A stretch of DNA of 35,463 nt from a virus. Below, piece by piece: positions 1-13,206 of this stretch. A program made the position numbers and the translations under genes. The stretch lies in IMG/VR virus record IMGVR_UViG_3300005549_000444, positions 1 to 35,463 of that record; one strand, given 5' to 3'. Numbering within the stretch: the first letter of the stretch is position 1; every line of letters starts with the position of its first letter. The notes under the pieces were generated by a model. The model was given only the letters and a program-made list of their open reading frames with translations, had not been told where the DNA came from and ran no database searches.

Positions 1-714
1 TCAGCGCCCCTTCACGAGCCGCCGCAGGCGGCGGCGCAGGCGCAGCGCCCAATCCTGCGGGCGCGGGCGGTAGTCGGTGGTGCGCAGGTAGCTGGTGTCC
101 CACCCCGTGTCGGTCTTCAGACAGCAATCGTTCGAGTAGTAATAGACCGCCAAGGACCGCCGCTCCCGGGCCCAGCGCAACGGCTCGGGATGCCCGTGGT
201 AGCTCGTGGCGCTGGTGGCGAAGATCACGGCGCGGTTGAACACGGGCGCGATCACCACCTCGCGGCGCCGCATGTCGGGGGACCACAGCTCCAGCGCGCC
301 GCCGGCGCCGGGCTGCCGGTTCAGGTACAGGAGCAGGTTCAGGGCCCGGCGCGCCCCCGTGCGCGGGTGGTGCGTGAAGTCGGCGTGCACGCCCAGGCGC
401 CCGTGGACGCGCGTGACGTGCTGGCCCCCGCCGAAGCGATCCGGGTCCGCGTGGAGCGGGCGCAAGCCCGTCAGCCGCTCCATCGTGGCGCAGAGGATGG
501 GGCTCTCCAGATAGCGGAGCGCGGCCTCGACCGCAGGATGCAGCCCCTGCGTGCGCGTGGCCTTGTGCCGCGAGTAGAGATGGTGGCGCTCGATCCAGGG
601 CCCGTCGCCGTCGAAGAAATGCGCGTCGGCCGCGGGCGCGAGGTCATCGGGGAGGAAGTCGTCGATGACCCACGCCGGGAACGGCTGCGTGTACTGCGTG
701 ATCGCCGGGCTCAT
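1..714 (-). CDS. 2-oxoglutarate/Fe(II)-dependent oxygenase
   Basis: 237 aa. The protein carries the iron-binding facial triad of the 2OG-Fe(II) dioxygenase superfamily: HAD (H110, D112) in a jelly-roll core and a distal histidine at about H173 in SYHGHPEP. An arginine pair at 185-186, before the strand SLAVYYYS, can bind the 2OG carboxylate. Prolyl-4-hydroxylase-like members hydroxylate proteins, small molecules or glycans; the substrate here is unknown. It is the last gene of the leftward operon and its ATG overlaps the stop of the 42-aa ORF upstream (ATGA). The C-terminus is strongly basic (RLRRRLRRLVKGR). The gene ends at the window edge with its own stop codon, so it is complete. Family call firm, role open. 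Confidence 0.88.
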   Translation of the reverse strand: MSPAITQYTQPFPAWVIDDFLPDDLAPAADAHFFDGDGPWIERHHLYSRHKATRTQGLHPAVEAALRYLESPILCATMERLTGLRPLHADPDRFGGGQHVTRVHGRLGVHADFTHHPRTGARRALNLLLYLNRQPGAGGALELWSPDMRRREVVIAPVFNRAVIFATSATSYHGHPEPLRWARERRSLAVYYYSNDCCLKTDTGWDTSYLRTTDYRPRPQDWALRLRRRLRRLVKGR

Positions 715-839: not shown

Positions 840-1441
840 CGTGGCGGGGGCGCCAGGCGGGCCAAGACGGACTTGAAGCGCACGTACGCACAGTCAGCCC
901 CGTGCGGAAACGTCGCATCGGTCGGCTTGATCCACCGGGGATTGGTTCGCCATTCCGAGATGAATTCGCCGTCACAGCCCCAGCACTGGAAGCCCTCACG
1001 CTGAGAGTCTCCGCATTCTGACCAAGCAGACCAAGGCTCCAGGCTCTCTTTCGCGTGCTTCCACGCCCATTCCAACGCGGCCCGCGCCTCCTCCAGCCGC
1101 TGCAGCGCCTCGTCCAGCAGCAGCACACCGCGAGCATCAGCCTTCGACTTCTCGTCCTCTAGTTCCTCCAGCGCGCGGCGGGCGGCGGCGAGGAGGGACC
1201 TTGGCGCAATGGCACAGGAGCATGAATGGCCCGGCGTCCCTGCGGGCTCTCGGCGGTCGCCGCTACAGGTCACGAGGTGGACATACGCTCCATTGCTCAT
1301 GGGTTGAGCGAGCAAGACCGCGGTCACCGCCTCCTCCGCCTCCGCGAGGCGGGTGCGGAGGTCGTCAATTTCAGTGAGGGCCTCCCGCATATTCCCCGCA
1401 TACGGACATGGCGTATCATGCCCCTCGCCGCGCTCGCTCAT
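836..1441 (-). CDS. Hypothetical coiled-coil protein with Cys pairs
   Basis: 201 aa from the ATG at 1441, chosen because it overlaps the upstream stop (ATGA, 1438-1441); the frame stays open further upstream but that part is a shadow of the 70-aa gene. Residues about 18-35 and 80-125 are rich in Ala, Glu, Leu and Arg, as expected for helical coiled coils. The C-terminal third has a CWGCDGEF pair resembling half of a zinc knuckle, then a Trp- and Phe-rich end. No known family recognised. It lies within the coupled leftward operon between a small membrane protein and a secreted peptide. Confidence 0.65.
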   Translation of the reverse strand: MSERGEGHDTPCPYAGNMREALTEIDDLRTRLAEAEEAVTAVLLAQPMSNGAYVHLVTCSGDRREPAGTPGHSCSCAIAPRSLLAAARRALEELEDEKSKADARGVLLLDEALQRLEEARAALEWAWKHAKESLEPWSAWSECGDSQREGFQCWGCDGEFISEWRTNPRWIKPTDATFPHGADCAYVRFKSVLARLAPPPR

Positions 1442-1650
1442 CGCCCCGCTCCGGTGGCCTCGGGATGATCCGCCTGGGCCAGCTTGCGCTCGTAGTGGCG
1501 CATCATCGCGCCAAGGAACAGATCGACCGCCTGACACGCGACGACGCCGACCGCGACCCAGCGCGTGACTGCATCCGGTTCCCCGCTCATGAGTGACAGC
1601 GTGACGAACAGCAACCCGACCACCGCAGCCATGTCCCACGCAAATCTCAT
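1438..1650 (-). CDS. Small two-helix membrane protein
   Basis: 70 aa with two predicted transmembrane segments, about residues 6-22 (DMAAVVGLLFVTLSL) and 31-50 (WVAVGVVACQAVDLFLGAM), followed by a charged tail (HYERKLAQADHPE). Start and stop overlap neighbouring genes by ATGA junctions. Size and topology would suit a holin or an accessory envelope protein, but the position in the leftward, apparently early operon argues against a late lysis role. Function unassigned. Confidence 0.65.
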   Translation of the reverse strand: MRFAWDMAAVVGLLFVTLSLMSGEPDAVTRWVAVGVVACQAVDLFLGAMMRHYERKLAQADHPEATGAGR

Positions 1651-1865
1651 CCCTCCTCCTTCGCCGCCGCCGCGGGGGTCAGGGTGCCGAGCACGAATTG
1701 GACGCGCGGCTTCCGGCCCTCGGCAATGTCCGCTCGCACACGTCGCACCTGCTCGTGCATGTCGCGCGCCTGCGCTTCCGTCTCAAACGTCATGACCAAC
1801 TCAACCCGAAAGACTGGGCCACTCGTGTACCACGTGTTCACGTCGATATGTCTGGGCTCGCCCAT
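1647..1865 (-). CDS. Hypothetical small protein (72 aa)
   Basis: 72 aa, starting MGEPRHIDVNTWYTSGPVF. It has an alternating beta-strand-like N-terminus (VFRVELVMTFET) and a helix rich in Arg, Glu and Gln (residues about 30-48), so a small alpha/beta fold is likely. It starts immediately after the RusA stop and its own stop overlaps the next start. No family recognised; presumably an accessory of the recombination module it sits in. Confidence 0.65.
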   Translation of the reverse strand: MGEPRHIDVNTWYTSGPVFRVELVMTFETEAQARDMHEQVRRVRADIAEGRKPRVQFVLGTLTPAAAAKEEG

Positions 1866-2237
1866 CTAAATCTCCTCCACCGTGATCTCCACGCCGCGCC
1901 CGCCGCGCCGGATCTGCTGGCTGTAGATCACCGAATGCCCTGAGTGCGGTGCGTCCGAGTGGATCACCTTGGCGTCAACCAGGCCATCGAGCGTAGGTTT
2001 TAGCGCGCTGACGAGGCCGTCATGGTCGAGCACGTTCCAGGTGTAGGCCGTGAGGTAGATCCGCTTGGCCACCGTCGGCCCGCCCACCTGGTCGCGCAGG
2101 CCACTGGCGAGCCATGCCGCCTTCACCTTGGTGCGCCACGTCTGGCGGTAGCGCGCCACGGTGGACCAGTGGCCATGCGCCCCGTTCTGGTGGTTCACGA
2201 GGTGGCCCGGCACGAATACCGTGGGGCGCGGTCTCAT
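1866..2237 (-). CDS. rusA: RusA-like Holliday junction resolvase
   Basis: 123 aa from the ATG at 2237, which overlaps the upstream stop (ATGA); the longer open frame upstream is the shadow of the XF1762 gene. The core DHDGLVSALKPTLDGLVDAK (residues about 71-90), followed by VIHSDAP, matches the RusA signature: conserved Asp residues (D71, D73, D84, D95) and a Lys (K80) that coordinate Mg2+ and cut four-way junctions. RusA acts as a dimer and resolves recombination intermediates during phage replication and packaging. Neighbours include an annealing-type protein, which supports this. Length matches the family (about 120 aa). Confidence 0.87.
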   Translation of the reverse strand: MRPRPTVFVPGHLVNHQNGAHGHWSTVARYRQTWRTKVKAAWLASGLRDQVGGPTVAKRIYLTAYTWNVLDHDGLVSALKPTLDGLVDAKVIHSDAPHSGHSVIYSQQIRRGGRGVEITVEEI

Positions 2238-2701
2238 ATATTCTCCAGAAGCGGCAACGCCCATCTGCGTTTCTTGGCTTGGTAGTGTTCGCGCGCTTTC
2301 ACGGTGCGCCCGCTGGTCTGATGCGATTGCCAGTAGCTTTGAATGCCGACGCGCTCTAGCATCCAGCCGGCGGCGCGGAGGCTCGCCCCAGACTCTGAGT
2401 CGAGCGTATACGTGATGATCCGGTGGAATCCCATCTCCCGCGCGATCCGGGCACATGCGCTGTAGAGAAACGAGCAGGCGTTTTTCTGCCCGTCCGTCGC
2501 CACGCGCACGACCTCGCACGTGAGCCCGTCGTCGCTATTGCGGTTCGGCGGGCGCGCGACGATGGCCACGCCGACGATCTCCCCCTCGCTCACCGCCGCG
2601 ATGCGAAAGAAGTCGAGGCCCGCCGGGAAGGCGCCGTGATGGCGATGCCACCGTGCTACGTGCGCATTGGCGGCCTTGAGCGTGAGCGGGACGACGAGCA
2701 T
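2234..2701 (-). CDS. XF1762-family protein (GNAT-like fold)
   Basis: 155 aa from the ATG at 2701, which shares its A with the upstream stop (TGATG). Recognisable features of the XF1762 family: LTLKAANAHVARWHRHHG at the N-terminus, GEIVGVAIVARP in the middle, NACSFLYSACARIAREMG, and ITYTLDSESGASLRAAGW. These resemble the acetyl-CoA binding layout of GNAT acetyltransferases. Such proteins are common beside phage recombination or replication genes; the substrate is not known. Here it sits directly upstream of rusA. Confidence 0.82.
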   Translation of the reverse strand: MLVVPLTLKAANAHVARWHRHHGAFPAGLDFFRIAAVSEGEIVGVAIVARPPNRNSDDGLTCEVVRVATDGQKNACSFLYSACARIAREMGFHRIITYTLDSESGASLRAAGWMLERVGIQSYWQSHQTSGRTVKAREHYQAKKRRWALPLLENI

Positions 2702-2964
2702 CACCGGCACCGGCCGATCCGCCGGCGGCACCGGGTGCAGTACGGGCACGTGCCCTTGCGCACCTCTTCGCGCCCGCAGCACACGCAGCGGTGGGTCATG
2801 GCCGCCGCCGAGGCGCTCACTTTGACGCGCCCCCGGGTGCCGTGTTCTTTGGTGTAGCACCCCAGGACCGCCCAGGCCCAGCGCAGGTCCGGTGAGAGCG
2901 CGAGGAGGTCGTCGTCAGACGGAGCGCTACACCATAGCTTGAACCACCGCTTTTGATCGGCCAT
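2701..2964 (-). CDS. Replisome-organiser-like N-terminus joined to a zinc ribbon
   Basis: 87 aa. The start at 2964 is preceded by GGGAGGT, a good ribosome binding site; an ATG 12 bases upstream is possible but lies inside that site. Residues 5-47 (KRWFKLWCSAP through TKEHGTRGRV) resemble the N-terminal winged-helix region of phage replication initiation/replisome organiser proteins. Instead of the usual long C-terminus the chain ends in a Cys-rich stretch (CVCCG, CPYC, then Arg-rich CRRRIGRC), which could bind zinc and DNA. Either a minimal origin-binding protein or a truncated relic. It is the first gene after the promoter at 3051-3079. Confidence 0.6.
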   Translation of the reverse strand: MADQKRWFKLWCSAPSDDDLLALSPDLRWAWAVLGCYTKEHGTRGRVKVSASAAAMTHRCVCCGREEVRKGTCPYCTRCRRRIGRCR

Positions 2965-3050
2965 CTCACCTCCCACCAGAGGCGACCGGGAGCCGACGTG
3001 GTGGCGTCGACCCCCGGTCCAGGAACGAACCGCCCGCTTGTTGCCCTGCT

Positions 3051-3079
3051 ATTACACTGCTAGCGGCCATGGCGGTCAA
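3051..3079 (-). promoter_or_regulatory. Sigma70-like promoter for the distal half of the leftward operon
   Basis: On the minus strand TTGACC (3079-3074) and TGTAAT (3056-3051) are separated by 17 bases. It lies over the 3' end of the 73-aa gene and precedes a roughly 90-base gap before the next gene, the only sizeable break in the leftward operon. The -35 context CTTGACCGCC is identical over 10 bases to the rightward promoter at 5487. Predicted start near 3044. Not experimentally known. Confidence 0.6.
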
Positions 3080-3281
3080 GCGAAAACGCCTGCTCCAACG
3101 CGCAGAGCGTCCGCGCCGTCTTCTCGCTGCACGTGGCCCCCCACCGCGCACGCCACGCCGCGATCTGCTCCACGGTGGGCTCGGGGTCGGGCGTGGCCGG
3201 CCTGATCCCGACGATGTACTCGGCCGGCGCGTGGCGGTGCAGGCCCCAGCCCACGACCGCCGAGAGCTTGATGTGTCTCAC
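3060..3281 (-). CDS. Hypothetical protein (73 aa)
   Basis: 73 aa from a GTG start that overlaps the stop of the upstream gene (GTGA). It begins RHIKLSAVVGWGLHRHAPAE and has a helical C-terminal half (PTVEQIAAWRARWGATCSEK). No family recognised. The short length and coupling to the annealing protein gene suggest an accessory factor. Its last codons overlap the promoter at 3051-3079. Confidence 0.6.
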   Translation of the reverse strand: MRHIKLSAVVGWGLHRHAPAEYIVGIRPATPDPEPTVEQIAAWRARWGATCSEKTARTLCALEQAFSLDRHGR

Positions 3282-4069
3282 TTCTTCTCCCGACTCTTCG
3301 CCGCCCTGTACAGGGTTTGCAGCTCGCCCAGGAGCGCGTTGAGCGCGTCCAGCGTGATCGCCTCCGGGTCCAGCACCGGCCCCTGGCCGCCCGAGTGCTT
3401 GAGCCACTTGGCCTTCTGCTCATCGGCCGTCAGCTTGAGCGCGCCGAATCCCTTAGCGACGGACTCGAGCACCGCCACCTTCTCGGCGCGCTCCTCCTCC
3501 TCGGGGGTCTTGAACAGGCGGTCGCCCTCCTCCTCCACCGTCTCGGTAATGGCGAGGTTGTCATGCGGCCCTGCCACGCCCAGGTCGACCACCTGCACCC
3601 CCGGAATCGTCTCCACCTCGGTCTCGTCCAGCATCCCGAGCCCGCAGAGGGAGAGGGTCACGCGCCGCTTGGCCTTGGTCTCGGCCTTCAGCAGCGCGTT
3701 GGCCTTGGTCTCGCCCTTGAGGTTCTCAATCGCCACCGCGCCCGTGGCCACATCCTCGCGCCCCGTACTGTCCTTGGCGTAAGCGGTGACCACGTAGACG
3801 CCCTCGGTAGTGGTGCCCTCCAGCCGAGTGATGCTGACGCCGTGCTGCTTGCGTAGCTGCTCCGTCGCGTCCTTGCGCGCATAGAGCACGAGCTTGCCGC
3901 TCAGGTTGAGGTACTGAAACGGCTGCGTGAGCGGGTTGAGCTTGAGGCTCTGGCACAGCTCGCGGTAGTACAGCAGCCGGTCCTGCGCGGAGAGCTTGCT
4001 CAGGTCGCCGCCCAGCACGACGCGCTCCAAGAGGCCGGCACTGTTCGTCGCCATCTCCGTCGTGGTCAT
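3278..4069 (-). CDS. Probable single-strand annealing (RecT/Bet-like) recombination protein
   Basis: 263 aa from the ATG at 4069, which overlaps the upstream stop (ATGA). The N-terminal core contains YRELCQSLKLNPLTQPFQYL (residues about 36-55), the element 'LnPlt' seen in RecT/Redbeta-type proteins, then LVLYARKDATEQLRK and a conserved basic stretch KAETKAKRRVTLSLCGLG (residues 128-145). The C-terminal third is acidic and helical. These proteins coat single-stranded DNA and anneal complementary strands for recombination-dependent replication. RusA two genes away fits that pathway, though no exonuclease partner is seen. The assignment rests on motif resemblance; a related phage protein family of unknown function is the alternative. 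Confidence 0.62.
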   Translation of the reverse strand: MTTTEMATNSAGLLERVVLGGDLSKLSAQDRLLYYRELCQSLKLNPLTQPFQYLNLSGKLVLYARKDATEQLRKQHGVSITRLEGTTTEGVYVVTAYAKDSTGREDVATGAVAIENLKGETKANALLKAETKAKRRVTLSLCGLGMLDETEVETIPGVQVVDLGVAGPHDNLAITETVEEEGDRLFKTPEEEERAEKVAVLESVAKGFGALKLTADEQKAKWLKHSGGQGPVLDPEAITLDALNALLGELQTLYRAAKSREKK

Positions 4070-5538: not shown

Positions 5539-5655
5539 ATGTTCTGGTGTTGGCGCTGTGACGCCCGCCTACCCCTTGATGCCCTGGAGCATCCCCCGGA
5601 CTGCGGGTTGTGTCTGGCCTGTTGCCGGGCGCATCATCGCCACGCCCAGCCGTGA
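5539..5655 (+). CDS. 38-aa Cys/His-rich microprotein
   Basis: 38 aa, with GGGAGGA 8 bases before the ATG. The product starts MFWCWRCDARL and has CGLCLACC near the middle, then a His-rich end (RAHHRHAQP), giving six cysteines plus histidines for metal binding. Its TGA overlaps the GTG start of the helicase gene (GTGA), so it is probably translated and coupled to it. Function unknown. Confidence 0.6.
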   Translation: MFWCWRCDARLPLDALEHPPDCGLCLACCRAHHRHAQP

Positions 5656-6878
5656 TCCAGAAGATCGGGGATAGTTACTTCGTCACGTGGCCCGGCGCCA
5701 TCACGGGCGAGTTTCACCACCTCCGCGAGCACAGCGACGGCATCGCGGCTGAGCTGTCCCTGACCCAGAACGGGCTGGTGGCCTACTGGGGGCGGCTGAC
5801 GCTGGCGAGCGCCGTCGCCCGGACCACGGCGGCCAAGGCCGCGGGCGAGGCGATCCCGGGGCAAGCGTGGCTGCGGATCATCAACGAGTCATGCCTCCAG
5901 GTGGTCGCCCTCCATCGCAAAGGGGCGCCGACCACGGCGCTCGAGCCCCGGCCGCCCAGCGCCGCCCGGTGGCTGGTGGAGGGCCTGGTGCCCCAAGGGG
6001 AGACCACGATCCTCTTTGGCGATGGGGGCAGCGGCAAGAGCCTCTTTGCGCTCGGGTTCGCGGTGAGCGGCCTCACGGCCGCCCCGCTCGGCCGCTGGCG
6101 GGTAGCGCCCGTGCGCACGGTGCTGTATCTGGACTGGGAGTCCTCGCGCAGCGACCACGAGGAGCGCCTGTGGGGGCTCCTGGGCCCGGAGCCGGGGGTC
6201 GCGCCGGGGGCGATCCTCTACCGCCCGATGACGCGCCCGGTGGCGGAGGAGGCCGGGGAGCTGCGCACGGTGGTGGCCCAGGCGGGGGTCGATCTGGTGA
6301 TCTGTGACAGCCTGGGGCCGGCCTGCGGCGCCGAGCCCGAGACGGCCGGAGCGGCCACGGCGGCGCTCAACGCGCTCCGGTCGCTGGCCCCGGCCACCCG
6401 GCTGGTGATCGCCCACGTGAGCAAGATGGAGGCCGACCGGCAGCGGGGGCATAGTCGGCCGTTCGGGAGCGTGTACGTCTACAACCTGGCGCGGAGCGTG
6501 ATCGAGGCCAAGCGCAACGAGGGCACGGAGCCGGATGAGTTCACGCTGACCCTGACGCACACCAAGAGCAATACGGGGCCGCGGAAGGGGCAAGCGGCGA
6601 CCCGGTTCCTGTTCAGCCCCGAGGGCTATATCTTTGTGCGGCCTGGCGATCCCGATCTCGCGCGGGCGCCGCTGAGTGCCCAGATCCGGGCCCATTTGCG
6701 CGACGGGGCGAAAACCGCACAGGAGCTGGCCGAGCTGTGCGAGGCGGCCGACAACCACATTCGAGCCCGGCTGAGCCAGATGGAGAAAGCGCACACCGTG
6801 GTACGCTTAACCGCACTGCCGGGCGGGAGGGGGAATAAAGGGCTATGGGGACTCGCAGAAAAACCGCACACGTCCTGA
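5652..6878 (+). CDS. RepA-like hexameric helicase/ATPase (RecA fold)
   Basis: 408 aa from the GTG at 5652, chosen because it overlaps the upstream stop; an ATG at 5610 in the same frame lies inside the preceding gene. The central domain has a Walker A GDGGSGKS (residues 123-130), a DWES element after a hydrophobic strand (about 161-164), Walker B LVICDS (215-220) and IAHVSK (253-258), the layout of RepA/AAA_25-type replicative helicases. The N-terminal 100 residues look like a separate beta-rich domain, and the C-terminal 70 residues resemble a winged helix (AQIRAHLRDGAKTAQELAEL). It probably opens the phage origin and unwinds DNA. Repeats at its 3' end may be the cognate origin. Confidence 0.85.
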   Translation: MIQKIGDSYFVTWPGAITGEFHHLREHSDGIAAELSLTQNGLVAYWGRLTLASAVARTTAAKAAGEAIPGQAWLRIINESCLQVVALHRKGAPTTALEPRPPSAARWLVEGLVPQGETTILFGDGGSGKSLFALGFAVSGLTAAPLGRWRVAPVRTVLYLDWESSRSDHEERLWGLLGPEPGVAPGAILYRPMTRPVAEEAGELRTVVAQAGVDLVICDSLGPACGAEPETAGAATAALNALRSLAPATRLVIAHVSKMEADRQRGHSRPFGSVYVYNLARSVIEAKRNEGTEPDEFTLTLTHTKSNTGPRKGQAATRFLFSPEGYIFVRPGDPDLARAPLSAQIRAHLRDGAKTAQELAELCEAADNHIRARLSQMEKAHTVVRLTALPGGRGNKGLWGLAEKPHTS

Positions 6879-6955
6879 GCCGGAAACCGCACACGCTTCT
6901 GTGCGGGTTGGTGGGGTGGGGGGGCGCTCCGACGCCCCCCACCCAAACCGCACAC
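6711..6955 (+). repeat. Iteron-like repeats AAACCGCACA around the helicase 3' end
   Basis: Copies of AAACCGCACA(C) occur at 6712-6721, 6861-6871, 6884-6894 and 6945-6955, with a degenerate copy (TAACCGCACT) at 6808-6817 and an inverted near-copy TGTGCGGGTT at 6900-6909. Two copies are 23 bases apart. Short direct repeats beside a replication initiator/helicase gene are typical of origin iterons, but the first copies lie in coding sequence, so this is a suggestion. Confidence 0.5.
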
Positions 6956-7186
6956 TTTCTCTTTGTCTTAGGGGTGTGCGCTTTCCTGACTGGCTGCAGC
7001 ACCACCGCCACCTACACCCGCGGCCCCGACGCGGTGACGTGCGTGCGCCCCGCGCACTCCCCGGGCAGCGGCCTGCTCGGCCTCCTGACCAGCCCGCTCT
7101 ACGCGAAGGCGGAGTACGACGCCGCCACCCAGTTCGCCCAGTGCAAGACCGCCGCGGAGCGCCTCGGCTTCACGCGCCAGCCATGA
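6845..7186 (+). CDS. Putative lipoprotein
   Basis: Up to 113 aa from the ATG at 6845, which overlaps the helicase end. A lipobox LTGC places the lipidated cysteine at residue 51, following a hydrophobic run (HFLFVLGVCAFLTG). That is a long pre-sequence; a GTG at about 6911 would shorten it to a usual length but lacks a basic region. The mature part (about 63 aa) is small, with two further cysteines. The N-terminal coding region overlaps the repeats and stem-loop, so the true start is uncertain. It could be a lysis-accessory (Rz1-like) or superinfection-exclusion lipoprotein; no family recognised. Confidence 0.5.
   Translation: MGTRRKTAHVLSRKPHTLLCGLVGWGGAPTPPTQTAHFLFVLGVCAFLTGCSTTATYTRGPDAVTCVRPAHSPGSGLLGLLTSPLYAKAEYDAATQFAQCKTAAERLGFTRQP
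6900..6954 (+). other. Large GC-rich stem-loop (terminator or origin element)
   Basis: The two arms share TGTGCGG plus GGTGGGGGG and their complements, with a CG-CTCCGA-CG centre; only a few bases between the arm segments fail to pair. The outer parts of the arms are the iteron-like sequence in inverted orientation. It lies 22 bases after the helicase stop and is followed by TTTCTCTTTGTC, so it may act as a rho-independent terminator, but its link to the iterons also fits an origin. Confidence 0.5.
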
Positions 7187-7813: not shown

Positions 7814-7838
7814 CAAGGCCGTCGGGCGATGCTAAAGG
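7810..7838 (+). promoter_or_regulatory. Sigma70-like promoter of the accessory/packaging operon
   Basis: TTGACA (7810-7815), 17-base spacer, TAAAGG (7833-7838) preceded by TGC, an extended -10 feature. The predicted start near 7845 leaves only about 8 bases before the ATG at 7853. It probably serves the coupled gene run from 7853 through the terminase. Confidence 0.62.
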
Positions 7839-7852
7839 TGACCCACTCGACG

Positions 7853-8008
7853 ATGCCTGCCACGGAGGCTACGGCGGCACTGGACCCGAAGGTGTGCGAG
7901 CGGTGCGGGAAACCGTATATCCCGCGCCAGTTTTGGCAGCGGTGGTGTGGGCGGCAGTGTCGGCAGCTCGCGTATTGGGCCCGGCGGCTGGCGAAGGCGG
8001 CCCCATGA
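7853..8008 (+). CDS. Zinc-finger microprotein heading the accessory operon
   Basis: 51 aa from the ATG at 7853 (an in-frame ATG at 7829 lies in the -10 box of the promoter). It carries CERCGKPYIPR (from residue 15) and WCGRQC (residues 31-36), a Cys-x2-Cys...Cys-x3-Cys pattern typical of small zinc-binding proteins with 'Cys-Arg-Gln-Cys' tails. Its TGA overlaps the ATG of the membrane protein gene. It may be a DNA-binding regulator; this is inference. Confidence 0.6.
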   Translation: MPATEATAALDPKVCERCGKPYIPRQFWQRWCGRQCRQLAYWARRLAKAAP

Positions 8009-9009
8009 TCGCGGCGATCCTGGTCGGGTACGCGGCCTACGGGCTCTGGCTCGCCCGGCGCATGGGGTGGTGCGATGGCGAGTACGGGCTGCTGCCGGCG
8101 GGGGCGGCGGTGCAGCAGGCGCGGTATCAGCAGGAGTTCGGGGTGGCGCCCGCGCTGGTGGGGGGGGTGGCGCGGCTGCCGTTCCGCCTGCCGGGGGCGT
8201 ACTGGGTGTACGCCTGGGCCCGCTACGTGCCGCTTGAGCGGCAGCGGGCGCTCGGCCGCGGCGTGTCGCTCGCGCTGAGCCTGCCCGGCGTGACGCTGAC
8301 GCTCATCTGGGCGCAGGAACTGGGGGGCCCCGCGGCGGCCGTGGGGGTGGGGCTGGTGCTGCTCTCGAGCGCCACCCTGGTGGGTAGTTACGCCACGGCG
8401 TCCTACGAGGGCCTGCAGGCCACGCTCTGGCTCGGCGGGCTCTACGCGGCGTGGCACGGGCTGCCGCTGCTCGCGGTGCTCTGTGGCAGCGCGTTGGCGC
8501 TCCTCCGCGCGTCGGCCCTCCCCCAAGCCTTCGCCCTCCTCGTGCTGTCGTCCTCCGGGTGGGCGTATCTCGCGGCCGCGGGGATCGGCTGGTACCTCGG
8601 GGGCCACCCGGAGGTGGTGGCCGCGAACGGCTGGGTGCGCCTGATCCGGCGCGAGCACGCCGTGCCGTTCATCCCCCGCGACGGGTGGGCCTACGGCCTG
8701 CGCGTGCTGGCCCAGCGCTACGAGCCCGTCGCCGGCTGGCTGGCCCTCGCCGGGATCGGCCACGCGCTGCCCGCCCCCTGTGGCACGCTCCTCACCGTGA
8801 CGGCCGGCACCCTGGTCGCGGCCCATGCCCCGCGCGCCCTGATCCGCCCGAAGTGGGTGGTGGGCTATCTGCCCGATTTCGCGCTGCCCGTCGTCCTCGT
8901 CCTCGCCGTCGCGCTGGCCCCGGCGCTCGCCGACCCGGCCTGGTGGTGGGCCGCGGGCGTGGTGACCGCCTGGGGGCTGCTCCGCCGCCGGCATCCGGCC
9001 CTGGCGTGA
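8005..9009 (+). CDS. Polytopic membrane protein of unknown function
   Basis: 334 aa from the ATG at 8005 (ATGA overlap with the preceding zinc-finger gene); the open frame upstream is a shadow. By eye there are about nine or ten hydrophobic segments: 1-18, 87-105, 110-137, several between 140 and 200, a pair near 240-280 and two between about 290 and 325. The segment between roughly residues 19 and 85 is a soluble loop with many aromatic residues. No transporter, kinase or glycosyltransferase signature is visible. Such a large multi-pass protein is unusual in a phage; candidate roles are superinfection exclusion or altering the host envelope, both unproven. Confidence 0.8.
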   Translation: MIAAILVGYAAYGLWLARRMGWCDGEYGLLPAGAAVQQARYQQEFGVAPALVGGVARLPFRLPGAYWVYAWARYVPLERQRALGRGVSLALSLPGVTLTLIWAQELGGPAAAVGVGLVLLSSATLVGSYATASYEGLQATLWLGGLYAAWHGLPLLAVLCGSALALLRASALPQAFALLVLSSSGWAYLAAAGIGWYLGGHPEVVAANGWVRLIRREHAVPFIPRDGWAYGLRVLAQRYEPVAGWLALAGIGHALPAPCGTLLTVTAGTLVAAHAPRALIRPKWVVGYLPDFALPVVLVLAVALAPALADPAWWWAAGVVTAWGLLRRRHPALA

Positions 9010-9362
9010 CCGACCTTGTCGCGACCCTGACGGCCCTCACCGTGTGCCCCGAGGACCACGCCCCCGTCGTGCGCCGCCCCGGCCCCGGGCGCCCCCCGCG
9101 CTTCTGCTCGCGCCGCTGCCAGCAGAAGGCCAACGCCCGCGCCTGGGCCGCCGCCCACCGCGGGGCCGCCGCGCCCGCCCGGGAGCCCGTCGTGCCGCGC
9201 ACGGTCCCGCCACCCGCCGCGGCGCTCGCCCTGGCCCTGGCCGTGTACGACCGCGCCCTCAAGGATGCCGATGGGGCGTGGCTGGCCGATCCCGCCGCGC
9301 AGCACCCGTGGCGCCCGATCCTGGCCGCCCTCCGGGCCGCCACCGACCCGGGGGGCGCGTGA
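9006..9362 (+). CDS. Zinc-finger protein (118 aa)
   Basis: 118 aa from a GTG overlapping the upstream stop. The N-terminal half has C15 and then FCSRRCQQKANARAW (around residues 35-50), a pattern shared by many small proteins of high-GC phages and actinobacteria ('RFCS..CRQ..YR'). The C-terminal half is Ala/Pro-rich and helical (ALALALAVYDRALKDADGAW). It probably binds zinc and perhaps nucleic acid. It is coupled on both sides. Confidence 0.65.
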   Translation: MTDLVATLTALTVCPEDHAPVVRRPGPGRPPRFCSRRCQQKANARAWAAAHRGAAAPAREPVVPRTVPPPAAALALALAVYDRALKDADGAWLADPAAQHPWRPILAALRAATDPGGA

Positions 9363-9997
9363 CCGACGCCCCCACACCCGGGTGCACCCCTGCCGAGGGC
9401 TGGACCCTCGACGCGGAGCCGGGGAGCACCTACCAGCAGGCCGCCGCCTGGGTGCTCGCGCACCTGGCCCCGGCGGGCGCCGCCTGCCTGGTCGTGGGCT
9501 CGCCCCCCGGCGAGGCCCGCGCCCTCGCCGCCCAGGGCTGGGCCGTGACCTACCTCGATTGGCGGACCCCGCCCCCGCTGCCCGGCGTCACCGCCGTGCA
9601 GGGCGACGCGGCCGCGCTGCCCTTCCCCGCCGCGGCCTTCGACGCCATCGCCTCCACGTGCGTGTGGTGCCACGTGGGCCTCGGGCGCTACGGCGATCCC
9701 TGCCGGCCCGGGGCGCGCGCCACCATGCTGGCCGAGGCCGCCCGCGTGCTCCGGCCCGGCGGCGTGTGGGTCGGGATGCCGGGCCCCGTCGCCGCCGGGC
9801 CGCCCACGGACGTGGGGACCGTCCACCACGTCACCACGCCCGCCGCCTTCGCGGCCGCGGCCGCCGCCGCGGGGTTCCAGCCCCCGACGCTGCGCGTGTG
9901 GCACGAGGGCCTCGGGCAGTGGCAGGCGGCCACCGCCCCCCTCCCGCCCCTGGCCCGCATCCCCGTCGCCTATCTCTGCGCGGCCATGGCCACATGA
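9359..9997 (+). CDS. Class I SAM-dependent methyltransferase
   Basis: 212 aa from a GTG (GTGA overlap). The Rossmann-fold elements are in order: CLVVGSPPGEARALAAQG as motif I (about residues 43-60), YLDW as the acidic strand end, QGDAAALPFPAAAFDAI (81-97) as the SAM-binding loop and beta4, then CVWCHVGLGRYGD (101-113) and ARVLRPGGVWVGM (128-140). This resembles Methyltransf_11 enzymes acting on small molecules or sugars. There is no DNA-methylase motif, so nucleic acid is a less likely target. The gene sits after the membrane protein and may act with it. Confidence 0.82.
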   Translation: MTDAPTPGCTPAEGWTLDAEPGSTYQQAAAWVLAHLAPAGAACLVVGSPPGEARALAAQGWAVTYLDWRTPPPLPGVTAVQGDAAALPFPAAAFDAIASTCVWCHVGLGRYGDPCRPGARATMLAEAARVLRPGGVWVGMPGPVAAGPPTDVGTVHHVTTPAAFAAAAAAAGFQPPTLRVWHEGLGQWQAATAPLPPLARIPVAYLCAAMAT

Positions 9998-10623
9998 ACG
10001 TCCACACGGGCTTTCCCCGCGCCTGGTGGCGCCTGGCCCAGGCCGAGCGCAGTACGTGCGTCCGCGCCCTCGTCCGGGTGGGCGAGCCGGGGCCCCTCGG
10101 GGGCCGGTGCTTTCGCCGCAAGCGGTGGGAGGACGTGGGCCGCCCGCTCACGGGCTGGCGCGATTCCTACGCGCTCCAGAATCCCGTCACGTGGATCTCG
10201 CGCCACCTGGCCCCCGTCTACCGCCCGCCCGCGTCCTTCTGGGAGCCGGTCACCGCGTGGTATCGCTACGCGCACCGCCACCGCGACCGCCCGCTGCACA
10301 TCCTGGGCGACCGGGCGTGCCCGCGGCACACCCGCATGGTCCGCTGGCAGTGGCCGCCGCGGCCCGATCACCCCACGCACGGCTGGCGCGCGCAGCTCGT
10401 CGCCCGCTGCTTCGTCGCCACCGTGATGCAGCACCAGTGGCGGATGGACTGGCACACGTGGGACGCGCTCCAGCACGTGGCGCAGGGGCGCGAGCCCTTC
10501 AGCGCCGGCGTGCTCGCCCGCGTCGAGGCGGGCATCGTCGGCGGCAAGCTCTGGTGGGAGCGGAAGCGCCACCCGTTTACCATCGCGCTGGGGACCGGCG
10601 GGGTGATGTTGGGGAGGCGATGA
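9994..10623 (+). CDS. Trp/Arg/His-rich protein of unknown function (209 aa)
   Basis: 209 aa from the ATG at 9994 (ATGA overlap). It is remarkably rich in Trp (about a dozen), Arg and His: WRLAQAERST, KRWEDVGRPLTGWRDSY, FWEPVTAWYRYAHRHRDR, HQWRMDWHTWDAL. No catalytic motif was recognised. The strong basic-aromatic composition suggests binding to nucleic acid or to an acidic membrane or protein surface. It is coupled with the methyltransferase and the coiled-coil peptide that precedes the terminase, where a small terminase subunit is often found, so an atypical small terminase is a possibility. Confidence 0.65.
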   Translation: MNVHTGFPRAWWRLAQAERSTCVRALVRVGEPGPLGGRCFRRKRWEDVGRPLTGWRDSYALQNPVTWISRHLAPVYRPPASFWEPVTAWYRYAHRHRDRPLHILGDRACPRHTRMVRWQWPPRPDHPTHGWRAQLVARCFVATVMQHQWRMDWHTWDALQHVAQGREPFSAGVLARVEAGIVGGKLWWERKRHPFTIALGTGGVMLGRR

Positions 10624-10781
10624 TGCCGTCTGAGCAAATCACGAGTCTGCCGTTCTGGCAGGCCGATCCTCACCCCGGGTCACTTCGCATCGACGACACG
10701 GAGATCATTCGACGACTGGAGAGCGTGGAGCAAAAGATTGACGAGTTGATGCGCCGCCTCAAAGAGCGCGGGAGTCTGTGA
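10623..10781 (+). CDS. 52-aa coiled-coil peptide preceding terminase
   Basis: 52 aa from the second of two adjacent ATGs (10620 and 10623), chosen for its better spacing from GGGGAGG. The N-terminal half is SEQITSLPFWQADPHPGS; the C-terminal half (EIIRRLESVEQKIDELMRRL) is a heptad-like helix likely to oligomerise. Its stop overlaps the terminase GTG (GTGA). Candidate roles are a terminase accessory or small-subunit remnant. Confidence 0.6.
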   Translation: MPSEQITSLPFWQADPHPGSLRIDDTEIIRRLESVEQKIDELMRRLKERGSL

Positions 10782-12541
10782 AGAAACAGACCCAGGCGCT
10801 CGCCGCCTCCTTCTGGGCGTTCGCGCAGACGATCCGCATTCCCTCGAAGGACCACGGCGTCATCCCGTTCACGCCGTGGAAGGTCCAGCAGTACGTGCTC
10901 AACGAAGTGGTGAGCCAGCTCGAGAAAGGCATCCACAACTTCGTGATCCTGAAGCCCCGCCAGATCGGCGTCACCACCGTGCTGCTCGCGCTCGATCTCT
11001 ACTGGATGCTGCGCTACGGCGGCCTCACGGGCGCGTTCATCACGGAGACGGACCCGAACACGGCCTACTTCCGCGTGATGATGACCGAGTTCTTCCAGTC
11101 GCTCCCCGTCCGCTACCAGTGGCCCATGATCCGCGACAACAAGGCGTTGAAGGCGTGGGCCAACGGCTCGCGCCTCGTGTTCCAGACGGCGGGGCCGCGC
11201 AGCAGCGTGAGCCTCGGACGCTCCAAGGGCCTCAACTTCTACCACGGCAGCGAGGTCGCGTACTGGGGCGACCCCGAGCGCATCCCCGATTTCTTCGCCT
11301 CCCTCTCCGAGCGCCACCCGCACCGCCTCTACCTCCGCGAATCGACGGCCAACGGCTTCAACTTCTACTACGACATGTACAAGAATGCCGCGCTCGCCAC
11401 CACGCAGCACGCGATCTTCGTGCCCTGGTGGCGCCACACGCTCTACGACCTGGCCCCGCAGAGCAAGCAATACCGCGTCTACTGGGACGGCAAGCTGACG
11501 GGCGAGGAGCAGGGCTGGGCCGCCCAGATCCAGCAGCGGTGGGGCGTGACGCTCACGCCGACGCAGTGGGCGTGGTTCCGCTGGAAGCTCGCCGAGGAGA
11601 TCCGCGACGACGTGAAGATGCACCAGGACTTCCCCACGCTGCCCGAGCACGCCTTCCAGGCGACCGGCAGCCCGTGGTTGGGCTCGCAGACGATGAACAC
11701 GCTGCGCCGCAACCTCGTGGAGGCGCCCGCGCCGGACTTCTACCGCTTCACCTTCGGCCCCCTGGTCGAGCAGATGGCGCTGCACGCCACCACCGACGAG
11801 CTGGCGCAGCTCACCCTGTGGGAGCACCCGCAGCCGCACAGCTATTACGTGGTGTCGGCCGACCCCGCGTTCGGCGCGAGCGAGGATTCCGACTACCACA
11901 CGTGCCAGGTGTGGCGTGTGGAGCGGTCGAAGCTCGTGCAGGTGGCCGAGTTCAGCGACAACGACATCACCTTGCAGCAATTCGCGTGGGTGTGCCTGCA
12001 TCTGGCCGGCCAGTACATGCGCTCCTACTTCATCCTGGAACTGCAGGGCCCCGGCCAGGCCGTGTGGCAGGAGATTCAGCGCCTGCAGACCCTCGGCTGG
12101 GGCACGCAACGCTCCCCGAGCGAGATCAGCGACGTGGTGGGCGCCATCCGGCACTACATCTACCGCCGGTACGACACCTTCGGGGGCGCGATGGCCTGGC
12201 ACTGGATGACCAGCGGCTCGCGGCGACAGGGCGTGCTCACGCGGCTGCGCGACTGCTGCATGGTCGGCTCCCTCGTGATCCGGTCGGCCGAGATGGTGGA
12301 GGAATTGTCGAACATGCGGCGGCAGGAGGGCGGCGTGATCGAGGCCGAGGGCAAGGCGCACGATGATCGCGTGTTGGCGGGGGCGATGGCGGTGGAATGC
12401 TGGCTCGAGCAGGCCATGCCGGTGCTCCAGCACCTGCCCATCCGCGCGCCCGGCGAGGCCGAGCCGCCCGCGCCCCCCATGCCGCACGCCGGGACGCGGC
12501 TGATGGAGCGCTTTTTCTCCGGGTTGGGGGGCCGGCTATGA
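10778..12541 (+). CDS. terL: Terminase large subunit
   Basis: 587 aa from a GTG overlapping the upstream stop. The ATPase domain has a Walker A-like KPRQIGVTT (59-67), a Walker B-type segment FYHGSEVAYW (154-163, with catalytic Glu159), and coupling elements to about residue 200. The nuclease domain (RNase H-like) begins with ADPAFG (Asp362), continues with LELQGPG (Glu421) and ends with AHDDRVLAG (Asp529/530). Together these pump and cut DNA into the procapsid. Length is typical (500-600 aa). No partner with a clear small-subunit fold was identified. Confidence 0.93.
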   Translation: MKKQTQALAASFWAFAQTIRIPSKDHGVIPFTPWKVQQYVLNEVVSQLEKGIHNFVILKPRQIGVTTVLLALDLYWMLRYGGLTGAFITETDPNTAYFRVMMTEFFQSLPVRYQWPMIRDNKALKAWANGSRLVFQTAGPRSSVSLGRSKGLNFYHGSEVAYWGDPERIPDFFASLSERHPHRLYLRESTANGFNFYYDMYKNAALATTQHAIFVPWWRHTLYDLAPQSKQYRVYWDGKLTGEEQGWAAQIQQRWGVTLTPTQWAWFRWKLAEEIRDDVKMHQDFPTLPEHAFQATGSPWLGSQTMNTLRRNLVEAPAPDFYRFTFGPLVEQMALHATTDELAQLTLWEHPQPHSYYVVSADPAFGASEDSDYHTCQVWRVERSKLVQVAEFSDNDITLQQFAWVCLHLAGQYMRSYFILELQGPGQAVWQEIQRLQTLGWGTQRSPSEISDVVGAIRHYIYRRYDTFGGAMAWHWMTSGSRRQGVLTRLRDCCMVGSLVIRSAEMVEELSNMRRQEGGVIEAEGKAHDDRVLAGAMAVECWLEQAMPVLQHLPIRAPGEAEPPAPPMPHAGTRLMERFFSGLGGRL

Positions 12542-13206
12542 GTCTCCGCGACTACCTGTTCCACGAGGAGCCGGGCATCACGCTCTACTGCGGGGATTGC
12601 CGTGAGGTGTTGCCGCTGCTCGGCTCCGTAGATGCGATGGTGACGGACCCGCCCTATGGCATCGGGTGGCCGCGCGGCACATGGGACGACTCTCCGAGCG
12701 CCTATCCCGCAATGATGCGCTGGCTCGTACATGAGAGCACCCGCTTGGTGCCGGCGGGTTGGGTGTTCATCTTTCAAGCCATGCCTAACATCGGTCGCTT
12801 TCACGAGTGGTTTCCCGAGGGCTGGCGTCTCTTTGCCGCCTGCAAGAACTTCGCGCAGATTCGCCCGACTGGCGTGTGGCATAGTTGGGACCCCGTCGTG
12901 TTTTGGAACAACGGGCCGAACAACGGGCCGAACAGCGGGCATGTGAACCGCGATTATCATGTCGGCAATGTCGCGGGCGTGTTTGGGGACCGCATCGGGC
13001 ATCCATGCCCTCGCCCGTTTGACACAATGAAGCACATCGTACAACTCGCCGCGGCGCCCGGCGGAGTGCTGCTGGACCCATTTACTGGCAGCGGCACAAC
13101 GCTCCATGCGGCGAAGGAGACTGGTCGGCGCGCCATCGGCATCGAGATCGAGCCGAAGTATTGCGAGATCGCGGTCAAGCGGCTGCGGCAGGAAGTGCTG
13201 TGGTAA
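12538..13206 (+). CDS. Beta-class DNA (cytosine-N4 or adenine-N6) methyltransferase
   Basis: 222 aa from the ATG at 12538 (ATGA overlap with the terminase stop). Motif IV TDPPYG (36-41) precedes motif I LDPFTGSGTT (179-188), the beta-class order, with a target-recognition stretch between them (residues 45-165). An N-terminal YCGDCREVLPLL is typical of the group. It transfers a methyl group from SAM to DNA, probably protecting phage DNA from restriction; no cognate nuclease is nearby. A duplicated 12-base unit encodes NNGPNNGPNSG in the recognition region (12907-12939). Coupling to the terminase hints at methylation timed with packaging. Confidence 0.9.
   Translation: MSLRDYLFHEEPGITLYCGDCREVLPLLGSVDAMVTDPPYGIGWPRGTWDDSPSAYPAMMRWLVHESTRLVPAGWVFIFQAMPNIGRFHEWFPEGWRLFAACKNFAQIRPTGVWHSWDPVVFWNNGPNNGPNSGHVNRDYHVGNVAGVFGDRIGHPCPRPFDTMKHIVQLAAAPGGVLLDPFTGSGTTLHAAKETGRRAIGIEIEPKYCEIAVKRLRQEVLW
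12907..12939 (+). repeat. 12-base tandem repeat inside the DNA methyltransferase
   Basis: AACAACGGGCCG occurs twice in direct succession (12907-12918, 12919-12930), followed by a partial third copy (AACAGCGGG). It encodes an NNGP repeat in the variable region between motifs IV and I. Copy number could vary by slippage. Confidence 0.75.

Follow-up and report, generated by a model that had tools for sequence, protein, structure and literature searches.

Why a phage should carry a gene for a large polytopic membrane protein within its packaging operon is the question raised by the viral contig IMGVR_UViG_3300005549_000444, which we analyzed over its whole length of 35,463 bases (69% GC; hereafter, the window). 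Here six genes run directly into terL, the gene for the terminase large subunit, and the second of them, mem (8005-9009, + strand), encodes the 334-aa membrane protein. We conclude that mem is very probably a glycosyltransferase of the GT-C fold, and we infer its enzymatic activity. We favor, at somewhat better than even chances, the reading that the region 5' of terL is a slot for modification genes, which in this phage holds a stand-alone GT-C enzyme modifying a glycan of the host envelope.

Fold and motifs of the membrane protein

An initial reading of this DNA from the sequence only (the sequence-only reading) had counted nine or ten membrane segments in mem. This agreed with an AlphaFold2 model built from a three-sequence alignment, in which ~10 membrane-length helices fall within the range of 8-13 transmembrane (TM) helices described for GT-C enzymes (PMC8035078). 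The quality of the model was moderate, with a predicted template modeling score of 0.68 and a mean predicted local distance difference test score (pLDDT) of 62; the core helices were good and the first loop was poor. The model contains the TM1-TM7 module of the GT-C core fold.

When the model was compared with the PDB using Foldseek, the top matches were ALG9 (probability 0.99), STT3, and ArnT, with ALG12, AglB, EmbB, and AftD close behind. After re-alignment of the structure matches, the top 34 rows were all GT-C enzymes (Z 16.8-8.5, model residues 1-334), while the first unrelated rows after these had Z scores of 7.7 and 6.0. Judging from this predicted structure together with the profile comparison and motifs described below, we are confident that mem belongs to the GT-C superfamily by fold. 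Foldseek also paired mem, with a probability of 0.99, with two uncharacterized viral proteins in BFVD, A0A514K300 (Nitrosopumilus spindle-shaped virus 1) and A0A8S5S3I0, which are possible further unrecognized viral GT-C enzymes.

A profile of the three mem sequences was compared with 29 PMT_2 proteins collected from genomes. This gave P = 4.4e-4 for the local and 1.1e-5 for the global alignment (305 columns), versus P values of 0.033 and 0.2 for an MFS control in the same test. None of 100 block-shuffled versions and none of 100 reversed ones scored as high as the real profile; circular rotations were not counted as a null because the aligned segment survives rotation. Fold and profile-profile comparison, two of the checks that the sequence-only reading had proposed for the membrane protein, both pointed to GT-C. 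The relation to PMT_2 (PF13231) is a remote one, seen by profile-profile comparison only, since mem lies below the Pfam gathering threshold and has no Pfam match, and we do not file it as PMT_2 or as any other named GT-C subfamily. It convincingly matched no family in Pfam, PHROG, or NCBIfam, and sequence searches against solved structures gave no match. At the sensitivity used, relatives of mem were also absent from 50,697 phage records, 72,556 plasmids, and our genome collection.

GT-C enzymes use lipid-linked sugar donors and act outside the cytoplasm (PMC8035078, PMC12041299). One of their extracellular loops holds a DxD-like motif (PMC8035078). A kinked TM3 has also been described, as has, for all GT-C_A enzymes, an essential catalytic Asp at the tip of juxtamembrane (JM) helix 1 (PMC12041299). 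In mem, a candidate catalytic motif, D24-G-E26, lies just after TM1, and R61-L-P-G-A-Y-W67 precedes TM2. In the alignment with PMT_2, D24-G-E26 is placed opposite the 'DE' motif of that family, and GAYWVYAWA opposite PPLFYWITAA. D24-G-E26 is thus a candidate for the first-loop acidic motif of GT-C enzymes; like the RLPGAYW stretch, it is conserved in the two lineages whose sequences extend over this part. Between TM1 and TM2, where GT-C enzymes have two JM helices, the model tentatively places helices at 33-45 and 65-71, with a pLDDT below 50 for most of residues 21-73.

Taken against the GT-C_A enzymes (ArnT, ALG9/ALG12, PglB/STT3, PMT, EmbB/AftB), mem shares the predicted fold over its whole length, the modeled succession of TM1, tentative loop helices, TM2, and kinked TM3, the first-loop D-x-E, and an aromatic-Pro motif before TM2. 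Unlike them, it has just 334 residues, no extracytoplasmic domain, and no named family match, and its activity is predicted. An unnamed membrane protein thereby becomes a testable enzyme prediction.

A coupled operon and its close relatives

The genes of the operon lie on the + strand in the order zf1, mem, zf2, methyltransferase, W, cc, and terL. As the sequence-only reading had described, each gene overlaps the next: all six junctions are 4-base ATGA/GTGA overlaps, versus 8 of the 42 other same-strand junctions in the window (Fisher p = 2.4e-4). We therefore reject a chance origin of these overlaps and regard the coupling as real. Upstream of mem, zf1 (7853-8008 as an open reading frame, with an in-frame ATG also at 7829) encodes a 51-aa zinc-finger microprotein with a C-x2-C / C-x3-C pattern. 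Downstream, zf2 (9006-9362, GTG start) encodes a zinc-finger protein of 118 aa that has a basic motif of the GRP type. It is followed by a gene for a 212-aa class I S-adenosylmethionine (SAM) methyltransferase of the small-molecule type (9359-9997, GTG start), whose assignment in the sequence-only reading was borne out by a match to Methyltransf_11 (E 9.8e-10). The last two genes before terL encode a 209-aa Trp/Arg/His-rich protein, W (9994-10623), and a 53-aa coiled-coil peptide, cc (10620-10781). The 587-aa product of terL (10778-12541, GTG start) has a weak match to phrog_2 (E 8e-12). The GC content at third codon positions is 0.95-0.97 in mem, zf2, the methyltransferase gene, and W, which is a coding signal, and at the protein level mem and W are conserved in relatives, where their ratio of nonsynonymous to synonymous substitution rates (dN/dS) is below 1, indicating that they are coding. 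Because the chain of overlaps continues past terL, again by 4 bases, into a gene for a DNA methyltransferase (N6_N4_Mtase, 12538-13206, + strand), the coupling says little about one shared process.

We found mem, W, and terL together in only four IMG/VR contigs, belonging to two lineages other than that of the window. Compared with the window, terL is 86% identical in these close relatives, W 72-74%, and mem 55-58%. The dN/dS values, which partial saturation of dS and an extreme GC3 make rough, are highest for mem (0.45-0.63), compared with 0.15-0.43 for W and 0.10-0.22 for terL. The order mem, methyltransferase, W, cc, and terL is common to all three lineages, the window included. In one of them, L002, the order is mem, methyltransferase, HTH_8/zinc ribbon, W, cc, and terL, with every gene overlapping the next. 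A second relative, L006, has beyond this zf1 (67% identity to that of the window over 36 aa), a gene of 57 aa, two small genes for Cys-rich proteins, and an additional methyltransferase paralogue that is shorter than the first. The protein with a Fis-type helix-turn-helix (HTH_8) and a zinc ribbon is encoded at 1463-1798 in L002 and at 9666-10004 in L006, whereas the window has no HTH gene between the methyltransferase gene and W. For cc, the relatives keep the position and, loosely, the sequence, with a C-terminal 'RLKERGSL' or 'ELRKRGSL'.

The methyltransferases of these relatives belong, by sequence comparison, to a different family from that of the window and are not recognizably related to it. 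A tblastn match of the window methyltransferase in L002 lay mostly inside the W gene and was rejected as composition noise. PADLOC reported only a generic methyltransferase part of mad2.

The sequence-only reading had proposed one process for the six genes and had looked to synteny beside terL for support. The core order is indeed kept in three lineages; mem and W are absent in ~80 more distant relatives, whose terminase is 38-42% identical. With the methyltransferase family replaced, zf2 missing or replaced, and an HTH gene added in the relatives, the idea of a single six-gene process is only partly right.

It had also pointed out that W and cc occupy the usual place of a terminase small subunit (TerS). 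W belongs to no family, has no matches in phage records, and gave an unusable predicted model (pLDDT 44), although it has conserved Cys, His, and Trp residues; in the family scan, neither W nor cc matched an HTH, the DNA-binding element that a TerS has besides an oligomerization region. The suggestion that W or cc replaces TerS has their position as its basis. That W is a packaging factor in this role seems doubtful to us, and W may instead be an accessory of the mem enzyme.

Genes 5' of terL in more distant relatives

Relatives of terL were found in ~590 or more IMG/VR viral contigs, and we examined the best 80 of these, which are not a random sample; in this wider family the identity of terL to that of the window is 37-42%. 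Apart from the close relatives, no locus checked had mem, W, or any other gene for a large polytopic protein ahead of terL. Many had a conserved ~80-aa protein, often with a gene inserted between it and terL.

In 12 loci (L028, L056, L085, and others) the gene directly 5' of terL encodes a GT2 (PF00535) glycosyltransferase. Three of the 12 were scanned and matched PF00535 with E values of 5e-7 to 3e-9, and the rest were assigned by similarity. The aligned region of these genes stops ~14-33 bases before the terL match. Three loci have a pair of glycosyltransferase-like genes in the slot, and in L062 a gene for an NAD epimerase (2713-3627) and then a GT2 gene lie close upstream of terL. The GT2 genes thus occupy the same slot as mem and have the same expected class of activity; they encode soluble enzymes of the GT-A type that have no relation to mem in sequence or fold.

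Other modification genes are found in or near the slot as well: genes for a 2-oxoglutarate (2OG)-Fe(II) oxygenase (L065, L067, L068), DpdA (deazapurine-in-DNA; L039 9273-10001, close upstream of terL), and a cytosine-methyltransferase-like protein (L014, judged by eye), and, in the slot of L022, a Mom-like gene. The window itself has a gene for a Mom-like DNA modification protein at 2234-2731 (- strand; phrog_1384, E 1e-30), which is in part ~50% identical to the slot gene of L022.

Seventy-three loci had at least 720 bases upstream of terL and formed 26 clusters at 90% terminase identity. In 6 of the 26 clusters, one or more members had a glycosyltransferase gene upstream of terL (in L096, at a distance of 0.9-1.6 kb). 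On the terminase tree the glycosyltransferase label needs ~5 changes, and supported branches force at least 4 of these. The best reading of these results is that modification genes occupy an accessory slot 5' of terL and are translated together with the packaging genes. That the genes found there are unrelated further weakens the idea of a single process for the six genes. If so, there is a fixed place beside terL where an abundant environmental phage group swaps glycosyltransferases and other modification genes.

In the genome collection terL had only four distant relatives, in metagenome-assembled genomes of beta- and alphaproteobacteria and Balneolaceae. The Manatee Spring phages MW202825 and MW202753 have a terminase that is ~40% identical and small proteins upstream of terL, without mem, W, or cc; in MW202825 a SAM methyltransferase gene comes right after terL.

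Possible function of mem and alternative explanations

Envelope modification, one of the processes that the sequence-only reading had suggested, is supported, as far as the model goes, by the GT-C fold and the first-loop motif of mem; enzymes of this fold work at the outer face of the inner membrane. Under this reading, mem would reside in the inner membrane, its D24-x-E26 loop pointing toward the periplasm or the outside. The donor would be a polyprenyl-phosphate-sugar that host enzymes make and flip, and mem would pass the sugar on to an envelope glycan. The SAM methyltransferase encoded by the coupled gene may then methylate the sugar, the lipid, or the glycan. Its position with terL suggests that mem is expressed late, and the altered surface might mask the receptor late in infection, such that released virions would not re-adsorb or rival phages would not enter.

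The gtr cassettes of Shigella phages (gtrA-gtrB-gtr(type), e.g. of SfIV, PMC3851460) also include a phage-borne, fast-varying, polytopic membrane glycosyltransferase, and SfIV lysogens are resistant to SfIV (PMC3851460). By analogy with gtr genes in serotype-converting phages, a late surface sugar could block sister or rival phages. Unlike these cassettes, the window has no gtrA, gtrB, or integrase that we could find, and whereas a gtr cassette lies beside int/attP, mem lies 5' of terL in a structural operon with methyltransferase and zinc-finger neighbors. Since none of the scanned proteins matched a gtrA or gtrB family, mem would depend on host donors.

The surroundings of the operon in the longest relative, L010, are suggestive in the same direction. 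At 1286-3012 (- strand), a gene for a 356-aa protein with 8 TM segments overlaps one for a 219-aa DSD-motif protein, which carries a TLDSDVVV stretch. The sole Pfam match of the 356-aa protein, to Wzy_C/O-antigen ligase (segment HVHNEYVEWAYEGG), is below the cut-off (E 0.0065), and neither protein has relatives in phage records. On the same strand L010 also encodes a 2OG oxygenase and a protein with a weak match to Methyltransf_23. Since the left end of the window (1-714) is an oxygenase gene homologous to that of L010, glycan genes of this type may lie just beyond the contig. Just upstream of the operon, a gene at 6974-7186 (+ strand, start codon ambiguous) encodes a small putative lipoprotein with the lipobox LTGC, which has a counterpart at 8316-8543 in L010 and could be another surface or exclusion protein. 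The glycan-like genes of L010 and this lipoprotein-like gene agree with envelope modification.

Several observations weigh against this reading. The model of mem comes from three sequences, only one of five models was good, and the loop with D24 and E26 has a pLDDT below 50; no GT-C family of Pfam, PHROG, or NCBIfam matched mem at any reported E value. No gtrA flippase or gtrB bactoprenol glucosyltransferase partner was present among the window proteins scanned. Furthermore, L002 lacks zf2 and L006 has a replacement for it, and the window methyltransferase is only 30% identical to those of the relatives with many gaps (BLASTP E 0.05 over 15 residues); because they are not recognizably related, the pair of mem and methyltransferase is not a fixed one. 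Finally, with DpdA, Mom-like, and cytosine-methyltransferase-like genes also present, envelope modification is not the sole business of the slot.

At nearly even chances, mem is a GT-C enzyme whose neighbors are unrelated cargo, sharing an insertion slot and an mRNA but no joint pathway. This would explain the free swapping (another methyltransferase family, no zf2 in L002, the HTH_8 zinc-ribbon gene in L002 and L006, two methyltransferase paralogues in L006) and the mixture of GT2, epimerase, 2OG oxygenase, DpdA, Mom-like, and DNA-methyltransferase-like genes in the wider family. However, a methyltransferase follows mem in all three lineages despite the change of family, and in L002 the two genes are directly coupled.

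Membrane exclusion proteins are frequent in phages, and mem might instead be a superinfection-exclusion or lysis protein, a GT-C-like bundle without enzymatic activity that blocks DNA entry or perturbs the membrane. Its fast evolution relative to terL (0.45-0.63 versus 0.10-0.22, with dS partly saturated) and the nearby putative lipoprotein gene would fit, but the match to GT-C enzymes spans the full length of mem, and the candidate D24-x-E26 and RLPGAYW motifs are kept; we consider this explanation improbable. Still less probable, we think, is that the whole slot, including mem and the methyltransferase, serves DNA hypermodification or anti-restriction. The DpdA, Mom-like, DNA-methyltransferase-like, and 2OG genes in or near the slot of relatives would favor it, as would the Mom-like and DNA methyltransferase genes of the window, but GT-C enzymes are embedded in the membrane and have their active site outside the cytoplasm (PMC12041299, PMC8035078), where mem would have little access to DNA. 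This explanation may hold for the GT2 genes of relatives, whose products are cytosolic. A host transporter or permease picked up once, which the sequence-only reading had named as the outcome that would undo its proposal, would also be polytopic and could go unmatched in family libraries, but we reject it as highly improbable given a fold search topped by GT-C enzymes with no transporter near the top, the failed MFS control, the conserved order and identity across three lineages, and the lack of mem relatives in the phage, plasmid, and genome sets at the sensitivity used.

Returning to the envelope-modifying slot, a bolder form of it can be put forward tentatively, as one we think could be right but probably is not: a surface-conversion cassette free of gtrAB, in which a minimal GT-C enzyme and an exchangeable methyltransferase, co-expressed with the packaging genes, would draw on polyprenyl-sugars of the host and redecorate the cell at a late stage of infection, with W as a possible acceptor-binding partner. 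The place 5' of terL would then be a dedicated modification-gene slot, repeatedly refilled by related phages with unrelated glycosyltransferases. If mem is active, phages would re-glycosylate the cell without gtrA/gtrB helpers and outside the classic serotype-conversion locus, and the position beside terL would be a simple handle for finding more such genes.

One further feature lies upstream of the operon. Six copies of AAACCGCACAC, with one mismatch allowed, occur at 6712-6984, compared with 0.4 expected in the whole window. They cluster at the 3' end of an AAA_25 helicase-like gene (5652-6878), resemble iterons or operators, and possibly mark a replication origin.

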